Source of the DNA: Sporichthya brevicatena
GTDB taxonomy: Bacteria > Actinomycetota > Actinomycetes > Sporichthyales > Sporichthyaceae
Length of the DNA: 64,000 nt
NCBI RefSeq assembly: GCF_039525035.1
Contig: NZ_BAAAHE010000023.1
Coordinates: 1-64,000 of the forward strand
Reading direction: 5' to 3'
A model generated the notes under the pieces. The model was not told where the DNA came from. It saw only the letters and a program-made list of their open reading frames with translations, and did not search any database. This document shows positions 4,614-9,716 of this stretch, one piece after another (the first letter of the stretch is position 1; every line of letters begins with the position of its first letter). The position numbers and the translations under genes are program-made.

Positions 4614-5207
4614 TCACAGGGCGAACGACGTCGGGTCCGCGAGGAGGCCGCGCGCGATGACCGATCGCACGGTGTGGCGGAGAGCCGCCGGGTCCGGCCC
4701 GCCGCGATTCAGCTCATCCAGACTGGCCATCGCGACGCCGCCCATGATCAGCGCCATGACGTCCTCCACGTCGACCGGGATGAAGGTGCCTTCCCGGACG
4801 CCGTCCTGCACGATCTCGCGCAACGCACCGAAGACCACTTCCTTGGTCTCGCGGAGCTGCTGGCCGAAGTTCTCGCCCGCGAGATTGGCCCGCAGCAACG
4901 CCGAGGCCAGAGCCGGCTGTTCGGTTGTCACCCGCAGGGTGGCGTCCAGGACGGCAACCAGGCGCTCAGTCGGGCCGGTCGCTGCCGAGACCTCCTTCTG
5001 CACCGTCTCACCGATGGCCGCGAGTTTGTCGACCAGGAGGAAGCGGGTCAGCTCCTCCGCGCTCTCGAAGTAGTAGTAGAGCGTCGACCGGGAGATCCCG
5101 GTCGCGTCGACGACGTCGTTGATCCGCACCGGCCCCCCGGGCTGGACCACCTGTTCGGTCACGGCCAGGAGCTTCTCGGCCATCTGCTTCGGAACCGGCT
5201 TCGCCAT
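4614..5207 (-). CDS. TetR family regulator (AtuR-like position)
   Basis: This is a 197-residue TetR-family regulator. The N-terminal helix-turn-helix carries DATGISRSTLYYYFESAEEL at residues about 36-55. The C-terminal domain has the TetR_C pattern typical of acyl-CoA or lipid-responsive members. The ATG at 5207 begins MAKPVPKQ; an upstream extension of 21 residues is open but runs into the operator region. The gene heads an operon with the AtuA-like gene, just as AtuR regulates atuA in Pseudomonas. The upstream gap holds two 30-bp imperfect direct repeats that could be its operators, placing both this operon and the divergent membrane-protein cluster under its control. Confidence 0.88.
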   Translation of the reverse strand: MAKPVPKQMAEKLLAVTEQVVQPGGPVRINDVVDATGISRSTLYYYFESAEELTRFLLVDKLAAIGETVQKEVSAATGPTERLVAVLDATLRVTTEQPALASALLRANLAGENFGQQLRETKEVVFGALREIVQDGVREGTFIPVDVEDVMALIMGGVAMASLDELNRGGPDPAALRHTVRSVIARGLLADPTSFAL

Positions 5208-5426: not shown

Positions 5427-5561
5427 ATGTCGCGTTCGTTTGAAAACCGCGAGCGGCGCCGCGGGGTCTACGCCTTCATCGGCGCCTATCTCGCTTTCAT
5501 GCTCACGGTCATCGCCCTGCAGGTCGCGCGCAGTCACGACCTCGGCTACGGGTTCTTCTGA
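5427..5561 (+). CDS. Tiny single-span membrane protein 1 (44 aa)
   Basis: An ATG at 5427 with a GGAGG upstream opens a 44-codon gene. The product has a charged N-terminus (SFENRERRRG) and one hydrophobic segment at residues about 15-33, so the N-terminus is probably cytoplasmic. I do not recognise the family. It is the first of four consecutive membrane-protein genes spaced by 10-17 bp and followed by NorD- and NorQ-like genes, so it is probably a small subunit of the same membrane complex. It shares third-position GC bias with its neighbours, which supports it as a real gene despite its length. Confidence 0.68.
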   Translation: MSRSFENRERRRGVYAFIGAYLAFMLTVIALQVARSHDLGYGFF

Positions 5562-5576
5562 TCGGAGGTCAGATCG

Positions 5577-5693
5577 GTGAACAACGACTACCTGCCCTGG
5601 CAGGACGGCGCGTGGTACGCGCTGATGATCGGGGCCGACGTGCTCATCTTCGCGTTCTGGTGGTTCGTCATGAGCCGCCTCGGCGATCGCTGA
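5577..5693 (+). CDS. Tiny single-span membrane protein 2 (38 aa)
   Basis: A GTG at 5577, preceded by GGAGG (5564-5568), starts a 38-codon gene 15 bp after the previous stop. The short N-terminus (NNDYLPWQDG) is followed by one Trp-rich hydrophobic segment at residues about 14-33 and a positively charged tail (SRLGDR), which suggests a cytoplasmic C-terminus, opposite to the first small protein. The family is unknown. Its position, spacing and codon bias argue for a small subunit of the membrane complex encoded here. Confidence 0.65.
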   Translation: MNNDYLPWQDGAWYALMIGADVLIFAFWWFVMSRLGDR

Positions 5694-5710
5694 CGGGACA
5701 GGTGCACGAG

Positions 5711-5902
5711 ATGTATGAGACCGAGAGCAACGCCTCCCCGGACCTGGGTGTCCAGGACCAGCACCGCTGGCGCGACCTCGACCCGCTCGTGAAGTTGGGG
5801 GTCGGCCTGGGCGCAGTGCTGTTCTGCGGAGTGATCCTCGAGGGCCTGTTCCTGGTGCCCTACGCCCTGATCGAAAACGGCTGGACGCCCGGGACGAAGT
5901 GA
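5711..5902 (+). CDS. Small single-span membrane protein 3 (63 aa)
   Basis: This is a 63-residue protein with an acidic soluble N-terminus (residues 1-26) and one hydrophobic segment at about 27-54 ending in NGWTPGTK. The ATG at 5711 is preceded closely by an in-frame GTG at 5702, so the exact start is uncertain by three residues. It lies 17 bp after small protein 2 and 10 bp before the five-span protein. I know no family match. It fits the same small-subunit pattern as its neighbours. Confidence 0.68.
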   Translation: MYETESNASPDLGVQDQHRWRDLDPLVKLGVGLGAVLFCGVILEGLFLVPYALIENGWTPGTK

Positions 5903-5912
5903 GGACGGAAAC

Positions 5913-6635
5913 GTGACCACAACGCTGAACTCACCGGACGCAGCCAGTCCGACTCCTGAGCTCGACGCCGACGACGCCGCCATCAGCAAGGCCGAACGAT
6001 GGTTCTTCGCCGGCGTGATCATCACCGGGTCGATCCTGGTCGGCCCGATCGGCATCCCGGTTCTCATCTACGGGATCTACCAGCTCCGCAAGATCGAGAA
6101 GCTGGGACGCAAGGCCGTTCGGCCCTGGCACGTCTCCGTGATCGGAGCATTCGCGATCATCGACGCCGCGGCGAACTTCGTCGGGTGGTCGTTCTGCACC
6201 TTCGCCGGTCGGACCGGCGTCGGCTGGACGATCCTCCGCGACGGCTACGGCTTCGGGTTCGACGGGTTCTACTACTCCGACTACGGCTCGAACTACCTCA
6301 TCAACGGAGTCTCGGGCCCCGGCGAGCAGTCCTACATCTTCATGGCCATGTTCGTCCTGTGGCCGATGCGCCTGTGCGCGGCGTGGGCGTTCCTCCAGAT
6401 GAAGCGCTGGGGCTTCCGCTGGATGATCACCACCACCTGGATGCTCGTGCTGTTCTGGGTCGGCTGGACCACCAACGGCCTGATGCACTTCGAGGAGCGC
6501 TTCGGCGAGGCCGGCGGGAGCCCGGAGTTCGGGTTCCTCGGATGGTGGCTGTTCAACAGCTTCTACATCCTCGGGCCGGTCGTGATGGTGCCGTACCTGT
6601 ACACCGTGAACAAGGAGCTGTGGAGCGAGGAATGA
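5913..6635 (+). CDS. Five-span membrane protein of unknown function
   Basis: This is a 240-residue integral membrane protein. Hydrophobic segments are visible at about 31-56, 73-92, 141-162, 170-190 and 208-230. The loop at 104-140 is rich in Gly, Tyr and Phe, and the segment 188-200 holds NGLMHFEERFGEA with His and several acidic residues that might bind a metal. It is unusually rich in Trp. The GTG start at 5913 follows GAGGACGGAAAC. The stop overlaps the start of the NorD-like gene by 4 bases, so the two are translationally coupled. It is the best candidate for the client or core subunit served by the NorQ/NorD-like pair. It is not NorB (too short, with no visible haem-copper His set). Confidence 0.72.
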   Translation: MTTTLNSPDAASPTPELDADDAAISKAERWFFAGVIITGSILVGPIGIPVLIYGIYQLRKIEKLGRKAVRPWHVSVIGAFAIIDAAANFVGWSFCTFAGRTGVGWTILRDGYGFGFDGFYYSDYGSNYLINGVSGPGEQSYIFMAMFVLWPMRLCAAWAFLQMKRWGFRWMITTTWMLVLFWVGWTTNGLMHFEERFGEAGGSPEFGFLGWWLFNSFYILGPVVMVPYLYTVNKELWSEE

Positions 6636-8143
6636 CCCGCGCGGTCAGCCTCTCCGAGCTCGCGGATGTCGTGGCGGTGCTCGCGCCGGCAATGTCGGCC
6701 GGGCGCCGCCACGGCACTCAGATCGTCTCCGGTGAGCGCGCCAACTTCGCCACCGACCTCACGACGGTCTACGTCCCCGCCTCGACGGATCCCTTGCGCT
6801 GGACCACCGTCGGGCTCGCACTCCAGTGCTCCCCGACCAAGGAGATGACCACCGGGTTCGATCTGGCTGCGCTCGCGCCGCGGGATCGCCGGGCGCTGCG
6901 GATCGTCGAGGGCCGGGCCGCGATGGGGTGGGTCATCGGCGAATGGCCGACCCTGCGTGCCGTCTTCGAGCAACTCGTGCCGGGCCAGGAATCTTGGGCC
7001 TGCACGGACGCGGCCGAGCTGGCTTCGCGGGCCGCGGAGCTCGCGGCGAGCGACGCCGTCCTGGACGTCCCGACTCTGTTCGGAGTGCTTCCTGGCGAGC
7101 GTCCGTTGAGCGCGCACCGCACCCGCGTGGTCGGGGACGGCCGCCGGCGCAGCCGTGTGTCGTGGTCGATCAAACAGACCAAGGAGAAGTTTCCGCTGGC
7201 GATCGCCGTCGGCGGTCCGGACGGTGAGGCACCGCGCCTCGTGCCTGTCGACGAGGTGCCTGACGACGAAGCCGAGACCAGCGACCACGACCGCCGGATC
7301 GGCATTCCCTACCCCGAGTGGGACTACCGGACCCAGCGCTATCGAGAGGACTTCGTGACGGTGCTCGAACGCCGGATGTCTCCACGAACGACGGGTGCAA
7401 CACGCATCGATCCGAAGTTGCGCCGCTGGTTCGCCGCACCCCATCAGGTGGAACGACGCGACCGGCTGGAGGACGGCGACCAGATCGACGTGACTGCCTA
7501 CGTGGACACCTACGCGCGGGCGCTCGCCGGCGAGCACACCGACGACCGGATCTACCGCGCCCTGATGCCCCGTCAGCGCGATGTCGCGACCGCGATCCTG
7601 CTCGACGCCACATCCTCACTGCAGGCCCGCGGCGGAGCGGGGTACCGTCTGCAGCTCGCATGTGCCGAGGCCCTGTCGATCGCCATGGGGTCAACCGGCG
7701 AACGGTTCGCTGTCTTCGCCTTCGCGGGCGAGACCCGTCATCGCGTCGAGGTCATGCGGTTGCGGGACTTCTCCCACCCACCCTGGATGCAACCGGCGGG
7801 AGCGACGATCCGGCCCTCCGGGTACACACGGCTGGGCGCGGCTCTGCGCCATGTCACCAGCCGCCTGCGGGCAGTTCCGGCTGAGCGCCGCGTGCTGCTC
7901 TCGATCGGTGACGCCGCTCCCTCCGACGAGGGATACGAAGGGAAGTACGCCGAGCTGGACGTGCGGCGCGCGACCGACGAGGCGCTCGGCGCCGGCGTCG
8001 TCCTTCATCAGATCGCGCTCGGCCGGGTGCACCCGGAACGGCTGGAGCGCTGTTTCGGACCAGGCCGGTTCCACTGCGTGAACCGAGCTGACGACCTCCC
8101 GGCCGTACTGAGCCGGGTGCATGAGGAGCTGACGAGGACGTGA
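6632..8143 (+). CDS. NorD-like von Willebrand factor A domain protein
   Basis: This 503-residue protein resembles NorD/CbbO-type VWA proteins. The pre-VWA part has YPEWDYRTQRYREDF near residue 227, a motif of NorD proteins. The VWA domain begins around 315 with a MIDAS-like ILLDATSSL (Asp325). NorD and CbbO act as adaptors that bring a MoxR-type AAA+ ring to a metalloenzyme client. The next gene encodes such an ATPase, overlapping by 4 bases. No cytochrome c NO reductase, Rubisco or CO dehydrogenase gene is nearby, so the client is probably the membrane proteins encoded just upstream. The ATG at 6632 overlaps the previous stop; the frame open further upstream is a shadow of that gene. Confidence 0.85.
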   Translation: MTRAVSLSELADVVAVLAPAMSAGRRHGTQIVSGERANFATDLTTVYVPASTDPLRWTTVGLALQCSPTKEMTTGFDLAALAPRDRRALRIVEGRAAMGWVIGEWPTLRAVFEQLVPGQESWACTDAAELASRAAELAASDAVLDVPTLFGVLPGERPLSAHRTRVVGDGRRRSRVSWSIKQTKEKFPLAIAVGGPDGEAPRLVPVDEVPDDEAETSDHDRRIGIPYPEWDYRTQRYREDFVTVLERRMSPRTTGATRIDPKLRRWFAAPHQVERRDRLEDGDQIDVTAYVDTYARALAGEHTDDRIYRALMPRQRDVATAILLDATSSLQARGGAGYRLQLACAEALSIAMGSTGERFAVFAFAGETRHRVEVMRLRDFSHPPWMQPAGATIRPSGYTRLGAALRHVTSRLRAVPAERRVLLSIGDAAPSDEGYEGKYAELDVRRATDEALGAGVVLHQIALGRVHPERLERCFGPGRFHCVNRADDLPAVLSRVHEELTRT

Positions 8144-8937
8144 CGACAGAAGCAACGAGCGAGTCGCCCTATTACCTGGCGGCCGGGTCGGAGCAGAAGG
8201 CGATCCGCATCGCGTGCGAACGTGGGCTCGCCGTGATGCTGACCGGCCCGACCGGTTGCGGCAAGACCCGGCTGGTTCGATCCATTGCCGCCGAACTCGA
8301 CCGCCCCCTGGTCACCGTCTCCTGCCACGACGACCTCACCGCGAGCGATCTGCTCGGGCGGTACCTCGTCGTGGGCGGAGACGTCCGCTGGGTGGACGGG
8401 CCGCTCACGACCGCGGTCCGGGAGGGGTCGGTCTGCTATCTCGACGAGGTCGCGGAGGCCCGCCGGGACACCCTCGCCGTGCTGCACTCCCTCCTCGACG
8501 ACCGACGCGAACTCTTCCTCGACCGGACCGGCGAATCGGTGCCCGCGGCACCCGGATTCGCTTTGCTCGCCTCCTACAACCCGGAGTCGCGCAGTCTCCT
8601 CAAGGAACTGAAGCCGTCATTCCGGCAGCGGTTCGTGACGCTGTCCGTCACCTACCTGCCCCCCGAGCAGGAAGCGCTCGTCGTTCAGCACGAGTCCGGC
8701 GTTCCCGAGGACGTCGCCACCGCGCTGGTCCGCAGCGCCGTCGCCCTGCGGCGGTCCGAGCACGCCGGGATCGAACCGCCGTCCACCCGGCTCCTGGTCG
8801 CCGCCGCCTCACTGGTTGCCGCAGGGCTACCGCTGGAGAGTGCGGTGCGCATCGGGCTGGTCAACCCGCTTTCCGTCGAGGGCGCGGTGGCGCTCGCGCT
8901 CGACGAACTTCTCCGCGCCGAGGGAGTACTGACGTGA
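8140..8937 (+). CDS. NorQ/CbbQ-type MoxR-family AAA+ ATPase
   Basis: This 265-residue AAA+ ATPase belongs to the CbbQ/NirQ/NorQ/GvpN group. The Walker A motif GPTGCGKT is at residues 36-43, the family segment DLLGRYLVVGGDVRW follows near 71, Walker B VCYLDEV is near 99-105, and the sensor-1 segment ASYNPES is near 145. Members remodel or activate metalloenzymes together with a VWA partner. The GTG start overlaps the NorD-like stop by 4 bases, and the stop overlaps the SDR start in the same way. The pair is therefore co-expressed with four upstream membrane proteins and a downstream SDR. Confidence 0.9.
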   Translation: MTTEATSESPYYLAAGSEQKAIRIACERGLAVMLTGPTGCGKTRLVRSIAAELDRPLVTVSCHDDLTASDLLGRYLVVGGDVRWVDGPLTTAVREGSVCYLDEVAEARRDTLAVLHSLLDDRRELFLDRTGESVPAAPGFALLASYNPESRSLLKELKPSFRQRFVTLSVTYLPPEQEALVVQHESGVPEDVATALVRSAVALRRSEHAGIEPPSTRLLVAAASLVAAGLPLESAVRIGLVNPLSVEGAVALALDELLRAEGVLT

Positions 8938-9716
8938 GCAGCGCAGCGATGTCGAATCCTGAACCCGCCGGCCGACTGGTTGGGCGCCGGATCCTGGTCA
9001 CCGGGGGCGGCCGCGGGATCGGGCGAGCGATCGCCCTCGCGCTGGCCGCTGAGGGTGCCGACCTCGGTCTGGTGTCCCGGAGCCTGCCCGATCTGGAGGT
9101 TGCGGCCAAGGAGGTCCGCGCCCTGGGCCGCACTGCCGTCGTGGCCACCATGGACGTCACCGACCCGGACAGCGTCGAGCACGCCACCGATCAGGTGGTG
9201 GCTGAACTCGGCGGAATCGACGTCCTGGTCAACAACTCCGGCGTGATCACCGCGTCCCGACTGTTGGACACCAGCGTCGCGGAGTGGGACCGCGTGATGG
9301 ACACCAATCTGCGCGGCACGTTCCTGGTCTGCCGGGCGGCCGGACGTCACCTGGTTGCGCAGGAGCACGGCAAGGTCATCAACGTCGCGAGCCACTTCGG
9401 GTTGATGGCCGCATCCGGGTTCAGCGCGTACTGCGCGTCCAAGGCCGGGATCCTGCACTTCACCAAGGTGCTGGCTCTGGAGTGGGCCCGGCACAACGTC
9501 CAGGTCAACGCCATCGCGCCGGGCTACGTCGCGACCGATCTCAACACCGACCTGCGCGAGGACGAGGCCCGCACCGCGCGGATCGTCAGCCGGATCCCGG
9601 CCCGGCGGATGGCCGAGCCGCGCGAGATCGGCCCGCTCGCAGTTCTCCTCGCGTCGCCGGACTCGGACTTCATGACCGGATCCGTCCTGGTCGTCGACGG
9701 GGGCGAGGCCACCTGA
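8934..9716 (+). CDS. Short-chain dehydrogenase/reductase (SDR)
   Basis: This is a 260-residue classical SDR using NAD(P)H. The cofactor motif TGGGRGIG is at residues 23-30, NNSG stands in for the usual NNAG, a catalytic Ser lies in VASHFG, and YCASK holds the Tyr and Lys. The closing DFMTGSVLVVDGG is typical of FabG-like SDRs. I chose the GTG at 8934, which overlaps the ATPase stop by 4 bases as in the preceding genes; ATG at 8949 is the alternative. Co-transcription suggests it oxidises or reduces a product of the membrane complex upstream. The substrate is unknown. Confidence 0.88.
   Translation: MSSAAMSNPEPAGRLVGRRILVTGGGRGIGRAIALALAAEGADLGLVSRSLPDLEVAAKEVRALGRTAVVATMDVTDPDSVEHATDQVVAELGGIDVLVNNSGVITASRLLDTSVAEWDRVMDTNLRGTFLVCRAAGRHLVAQEHGKVINVASHFGLMAASGFSAYCASKAGILHFTKVLALEWARHNVQVNAIAPGYVATDLNTDLREDEARTARIVSRIPARRMAEPREIGPLAVLLASPDSDFMTGSVLVVDGGEAT

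Follow-up and report, generated by a model that had tools for sequence, protein, structure and literature searches.

A NorQ/NorD-like ATPase pair and its candidate four-protein membrane client in Actinobacteria

The first 64,000 nucleotides of contig NZ_BAAAHE010000023.1 of Sporichthya brevicatena (contig 23 of a 5.2 Mb actinobacterial genome; the whole stretch is hereafter the window) carry a compact set of six genes: three tiny genes (SM1, SM2 and SM3), a gene for a 240-residue membrane protein (MEM240), and a pair that encodes a protein with a von Willebrand factor A domain (VWA) and an AAA+ ATPase (AAA). We propose that the operon specifies an undescribed complex of one six-helix and three single-span proteins, together with a NorQ/NorD-type machine that remodels this complex into its active form. 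We assign this reading a probability of roughly 0.68. Within it, the dedication of a NorQ/NorD-type machine to a four-subunit membrane client is well supported, because the six genes recur as a unit, the VWA gene tracks the membrane genes across mycobacterial genomes, genomes with loci holding only the membrane quartet keep a VWA gene elsewhere, and the tiny genes are in places fused to one another.

Results

Conservation of the six-gene unit

SM1, SM2, SM3, MEM240, VWA and AAA form a single tight operon. Gaps of 15, 17 and 10 bp separate SM1 from SM2, SM2 from SM3 and SM3 from MEM240, and overlaps of 4 bp join MEM240 to VWA, VWA to AAA, and AAA to a gene for a short-chain dehydrogenase/reductase (SDR) (Table 1). 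An earlier, sequence-only reading of this DNA had the positions, the spacings and the overlaps right. It had also placed the SDR gene in the series; this gene is translationally coupled in the window, yet lies outside the conserved unit.

A scan of 84,980 species genomes returned 332 stretches encoding a relative of MEM240 (hereafter MEM), of which the best 80 were kept; this sample leans mycobacterial. The best 79 of the 332 loci come from Mycobacterium sensu lato, Nocardia, Rhodococcus, Williamsia, Aldersonia, Sporichthya and Acidimicrobiia. The system is patchy, since 9 of 396 genomes in a phylum-wide draw were positive for MEM. Six-frame profile searches covered 87 loci, with genes outside the window called by a simple custom script; L012/L050 and L014/L091 are identical regions, which leaves 85 units. 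All six genes occur together in 57 of these, including the window and genome G172 (whose AAA scored under the threshold but is present, so that the unit was counted as complete). SM1, SM2, SM3 and MEM stand without the ATPase pair in 22 units, and the remaining six are fused or divergent forms. The order SM1-SM2-SM3-MEM-VWA-AAA is common to the window, an Acidimicrobiia metagenome-assembled genome (L087, where SM1 is the tail of an over-long open reading frame (ORF) call) and G172, which belongs to another family of the phylum. The six genes have stayed together as a unit in different classes of Actinobacteria, the phylum to which the searches were confined. No description of it was found in the open-access literature, and the one relative in a plasmid collection, on a Mycobacterium branderi plasmid, is annotated 'hypothetical protein'.

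Most mycobacterial loci are rearranged to SM2-VWA-AAA-SM1-MEM-SM3, many with a second MEM copy upstream. In a tree the two copies for the most part separate, one clade having 44 members and the other 41, the mark of an old duplication after which both were retained. Because the paired MEM genes from L013 to L094 belong to different clades, the complex may exist in a heteromeric version.

Table 1. Genes of the unit and its immediate neighbors in the window.
Feature	Positions	Strand	Description
SM1	5427-5561	+	44 aa, single-span, basic N-terminus, GYG close to the end
SM2	5577-5693	+	38 aa, single-span
SM3	5711-5902	+	63 aa, single-span; alternative GTG start possible at 5702
MEM240	5913-6635	+	polytopic membrane protein, 240 residues, six long predicted helices
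VWA	6632-8143	+	503 aa, NorD-like, intact metal ion-dependent adhesion site (MIDAS)
AAA	8140-8937	+	265 aa, AAA+ ATPase of the NorQ/CbbQ/GvpN (MoxR) kind
SDR oxidoreductase	8934-9716	+	overlaps AAA by 4 bp
TetR-family regulator, divergent	4614-5207	-	alternative start 5270

The VWA gene follows the membrane genes

MEM is present in 82 of 148 mycobacterial genomes. A full-length cognate VWA was found in 80 genomes, all of them among those 82, versus 0 of the 66 genomes without MEM. The two MEM-positive genomes that lack it, G448 and G502, have divergent MEM matches only. This distribution bears out the earlier proposal that the pair is dedicated to the membrane proteins; homologues occurring mostly apart from the membrane genes and beside norCB would have spoken against it, and in mycobacteria the cognate VWA was found only in MEM-positive genomes. 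Across mycobacteria and Nocardia, cognate VWAs score 830-945 bits versus 190 bits or less for other NorD-like proteins; the VWAs of the window (653 bits) and G172 (348 bits) fall outside this cognate range.

The 22 loci with the quartet alone lie in 21 genomes, and all 21 encode a cognate VWA elsewhere (E ≤ 1e-260), versus 54% of mycobacteria overall. The chance of such an outcome at this background is 0.54^21, or 2e-6, kinship ignored. Because every one of these genomes keeps the VWA, we suggest that quartet-only loci are served in trans. At two loci from the genus of the window, a stand-alone AAA+ gene that overlaps MEM by 4-13 bp (L010:9153-9980 and L011:10632-11501) replaces the NorQ/NorD pair, as if ATP-driven remodelling were what is required. 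The L010 protein matches PF00004 and AAA_lid_3 in Pfam, and that of L011 was assigned by its similar sequence.

An ATPase pair of the NorQ/NorD type

As the sequence-only reading had recognized, AAA and VWA resemble NorQ/CbbQ and NorD, respectively. In Pfam, AAA has an AAA_5 core (5e-37) and a CbbQ_C domain (2e-19), and a PDB search matched it to NorQ (8e-76; the Midasin rows ranked above it are multi-domain sums). Its Walker A motif is GPTGCGKT and its Walker B motif CYLDE, and GPTGCGKT and LDE are invariant in the family. A profile of the VWA family finds the two solved NorD proteins in the PDB (1e-55 and 4e-53), and no other chain scores below 1e-5. This similarity is limited to the C-terminal 290 profile positions (223-509); the N-terminal 220 residues are conserved within the family and do not align to NorD. 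The MIDAS of the window protein comprises D325-A-T-S-S329, T399 and D427, and D325, S329, T399 and D427 are invariant across 28 family members. By sequence, then, the pair is NorQ/NorD-like.

Like the norCBQDEF cluster of Paracoccus, which encodes the cytochrome c-dependent nitric oxide reductase (cNOR), the unit combines a MoxR-class AAA+ protein and a MIDAS-bearing VWA partner that would serve a membrane complex. Unlike that cluster, it has neither norB nor norC, its VWA has about 500 rather than 640 residues, and its proposed client is a four-part membrane complex with no recognizable haem or metal motifs. CbbQ/CbbO, the Rubisco activase, and GvpN-type ATPases share the AAA_5 plus CbbQ_C architecture, whereas here the VWA partner is NorD-like and the client membrane-bound.

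SM1, SM2 and SM3 are conserved as proteins

The ratio of non-synonymous to synonymous change (pN/pS) among homologues of the tiny genes is 0.24-0.26, versus 0.30 for the large membrane protein, a pattern that marks them as being under purifying selection. With profiles built without the window sequences, the correct ORF ranks first among 966 six-frame ORFs for all three proteins, with individually weak E-values of 0.03-0.5. These are evidently real genes, conserved across genera; a lack of such conservation at the protein level would have spoken against the sequence-only reading. SM1 has a homologue in every one of the 85 units, as a gene of its own in 82 and as part of a fusion in three. Those fusions join SM1, SM2 and SM3 upstream of MEM (L017:9540-9968, L018:9498-9980 and L084:4886-5248); the fused gene overlaps MEM by 4 bp in L018 and L084 and ends 80 bp before it in L017. 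A cognate VWA is encoded in two of the three host genomes and is missing from G605. SM2 is apparently fused to SM3 in L010-L012.

In mycobacteria, SM2 relatives terminate in FWYWxxxxxGTF, and SM3 relatives bear an additional extracytoplasmic tail with two conserved Cys that are absent from SM3 of the window. A match of SM2 to HmcD (2.7e-3, below the cut-off) was set aside as a short single-span alignment.

MEM240 falls outside named families

MEM240 and 32 homologues gave no convincing match to a Pfam family, and MEM240 has no relative in NCBIfam, PHROGs or PDB sequences (the PDB was searched with an alignment as well). Among these 33 members, neither the PmoC/AmoC nor the PmoA/AmoA families of Pfam were matched. 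An AmoC search of the window's genome was likewise negative, as were the control genomes. The membrane quartet matched no transporter family in Pfam, and the AveC-like family PF17198 was not matched by MEM240 or its homologues. Two AlphaFold2 models (mean predicted local confidence (pLDDT) 81 and 82; predicted template modelling score (pTM) 0.78 and 0.77) each show six long helices, rather than the five spans of the sequence-only reading. In Foldseek, the first model matched the human sterol isomerase EBP (probability 0.98, E 0.68, TM-score 0.50/0.55), and with the second model the probability fell to 0.20. We assign no fold to MEM240, because the match was not reproduced. The structure and profile searches thus yielded neither a named family nor a robust fold.

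Across 77 MEM homologues, the invariant polar residues include R70, D84, N88, D117, Y120, E138 and R196; D95 (99%), H100 (95%), N125 (99%) and K139 (99%) are nearly so. On a positive-inside reading of the helices, the TM2/TM3 and TM4/TM5 loops would face inside, the loop 98-135, with D117 and Y120, would face outside, and E138 would begin TM4 on the outer side. In this predicted topology the conserved polar residues cluster on the extracytoplasmic side. The window protein deviates at the four near-invariant sites (D95C, H100R, N125G and K139Q; window positions 6195-6329). Either these residues are non-essential or the window copy has an altered site. H100 is the only widely conserved extracytoplasmic His of the family. 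MEM240 is a candidate for the catalytic or substrate-binding subunit.

Catabolic surroundings

The unit is preceded by the divergent TetR gene, which also adjoins many homologous units, and by an AtuA homologue (PF07287, 1.8e-150). Downstream in the window lie genes for a lipase-like hydrolase, for monooxygenases of the luciferase-like (LLM) and Baeyer-Villiger types, and for acyl-CoA and carboxylase enzymes. With pathway names taken from gene families, these surroundings suggest the breakdown of a terpenoid-like compound. Other loci have cytochrome P450, SDR and acyl-CoA genes nearby, and clusters in the genus of the window carry ATP-binding cassette (ABC) transporter genes of their own. About 3 kb from the six-gene unit of G172, Mce- and YrbE-like genes were noted by inspection (L114:1406-4379). 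NorE-like (COX3) and NorF-like (COX4_pro) genes lie at L011:5331-6219, 3-4 kb upstream of the MEM quartet, with no norB nearby by inspection, and Rieske ferredoxin-like genes occur near MEM in L010 and L011.

Discussion

In cNOR maturation, a finger of NorD plugs into the NorQ hexamer, and ATP-driven rotation stretches the NorD linker, a movement proposed to open up cNOR so that iron can be inserted (PMC13036017). By analogy, the NorD-like VWA would dock on the quartet via its MIDAS, and the NorQ-like hexamer would twist the quartet from the cytoplasm at the expense of ATP (PMC13036017). The quartet itself would be an enzyme for a lipophilic substrate or intermediate that resembles a terpenoid or steroid. 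Its action is placed on the extracytoplasmic side because the conserved polar residues cluster there.

Several observations weigh against this proposal. Divergent MEM loci without a cognate VWA occur in G001 and G002, of the genus of the window, and in G448, G502 and G605; some MEM subfamilies therefore work without VWA. Most loci are mycobacterial and their genomes are related, so the counts given above are not independent. The role as an enzyme is inferred from the catabolic context, because MEM240 is without a recognizable relative.

Several accounts of the quartet compete. In the sequence-only reading it is a metal-dependent membrane enzyme, perhaps an oxygenase or desaturase, which would mature as metal is inserted; we regard this as the leading specific alternative and still as unlikely. 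It draws on the requirement of NorQ/NorD for FeB insertion into cNOR (PMC13036017), on the conservation in the family of D84, D95, H100, D117 and E138 on TM3 and the outer loop, and on the NorE/NorF-like and Rieske ferredoxin-like genes described above. Yet no oxygenase family or fold was matched, every invariant polar residue is an Asp, Asn, Tyr, Glu or Arg, and the window has Cys for D95 and Arg for H100. The particulate methane and ammonia monooxygenases (pMMO/AMO) also have a multi-span subunit of about 240 residues, PmoC, in a membrane complex, but MEM240 matches AmoC/PmoC neither as a family nor as a fold, and the His-rich copper-ligand pattern of PmoC/AmoC is not readily apparent in it.

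Sister pairs argue in the same direction. The genus of the window and mycobacteria also have NorQ/NorD-like pairs of a second class, which lie beside genes for AveC-like membrane proteins (PF17198; L129:4749-7273, L131:7477-10001, L132:7054-9508 and similar). Among the matches listed from 40 genomes, an AveC-like gene stands within 2.7 kb of a non-cognate NorD-like VWA in 18 of 18 places, versus 0 of 24 for cognate VWAs; the neighbors of these listed mycobacterial pairs are not norCB. The neighborhoods of eight NorQ/NorD-like loci give largely the same picture; the distance to the AveC-like gene is about 6 kb in L126. As in the window, the AAA+/VWA genes adjoin one for a polytopic membrane protein and the cluster is catabolic, but tiny genes are absent and the AveC-like protein is unlike MEM240. 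These VWAs match over the C-terminal half only, at about 1e-50 versus <1e-249 for mycobacterial cognate VWAs. The characterized member of the AveC family is not known to be a metalloenzyme. AveC forms spiroketals and dehydrates (PMC13303154), and a NorQ/NorD-type pair therefore need not imply a redox metalloenzyme. The link between AveC-like proteins and these neighbors is one of gene proximity only.

The spirocyclase/dehydratase family of those neighbors is an argument for a second alternative, a quartet that isomerizes, cyclizes or dehydrates lipophilic intermediates without redox chemistry and that the pair assembles or remodels without metal insertion. We consider this improbable, somewhat more so than the oxygenase. 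The EBP match of the first MEM240 model would favor it, and size is a further likeness between MEM240 and EBP/EXPERA proteins. That match, however, is non-significant, comes from a single model and has no support from family profiles: the EXPERA family of Pfam was matched by none of the 33 members. Common ancestry with AveC-like proteins found no support either, the profile-profile comparison (hhalign) giving a probability of only 6. When 198 genomes were searched for EXPERA proteins, there was only a sub-threshold match (PF05241), to a DUF4386-like membrane protein (L110:1198-1938) whose genome has its second MEM locus about 28 kb away; proteins similar to it are encoded beside or near MEM in L010, L011, L039 and L059.

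Less probable again is an uptake system or receptor for a hydrophobic substrate. All four parts are membrane proteins within catabolic clusters, and Mce- and YrbE-like genes lie close to the unit in G172. The quartet nevertheless matched no transporter family, the clusters in the genus of the window already have ABC transporter genes, and, to our knowledge, three single-span helpers with a NorQ/NorD pair have no precedent among transporters. We see little room for a pair that acts on another product of the cluster, such as a P450, with its linkage to the membrane genes secondary: P450 genes occur in 51 loci but are not constant neighbors, whereas VWA and MEM go together across mycobacteria and their genes overlap in the window. 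An ordinary nor cluster, or a remnant of one, can practically be dismissed despite the NorQ/NorD-like pair, since neither norB nor norC is among the membrane genes and the sole COX1-family gene of the genome is on contig 37, none lying by the unit, in line with the earlier statement that nitric oxide reductase is not encoded here.

Returning to a dedicated remodelling machine and its membrane complex, a broader scenario can be entertained tentatively. Actinobacteria may have repurposed the NorQ/NorD machine to activate unrelated enzymes of the membrane that break down lipids and terpenoids. One class would be a new four-subunit membrane enzyme, possibly a carboxylate-ligated metalloenzyme with a fold of its own, whose maturation takes place both in cis and in trans; the second would be the AveC-like proteins.

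Few clients of MoxR/VWA pairs are known, and the quartet would add one that is widely kept. This client is nameless in Pfam, NCBIfam and one RefSeq annotation, and three of its four genes encode very short proteins in many loci, easily missed. Where one genome has both kinds of locus, one with an ATPase pair of its own and one lacking it, a direct test becomes possible. If confirmed, the system would give a new membrane-protein family a testable function and would carry NorQ/NorD biology beyond denitrification, into the way in which mycobacteria and related bacteria degrade hydrophobic compounds.

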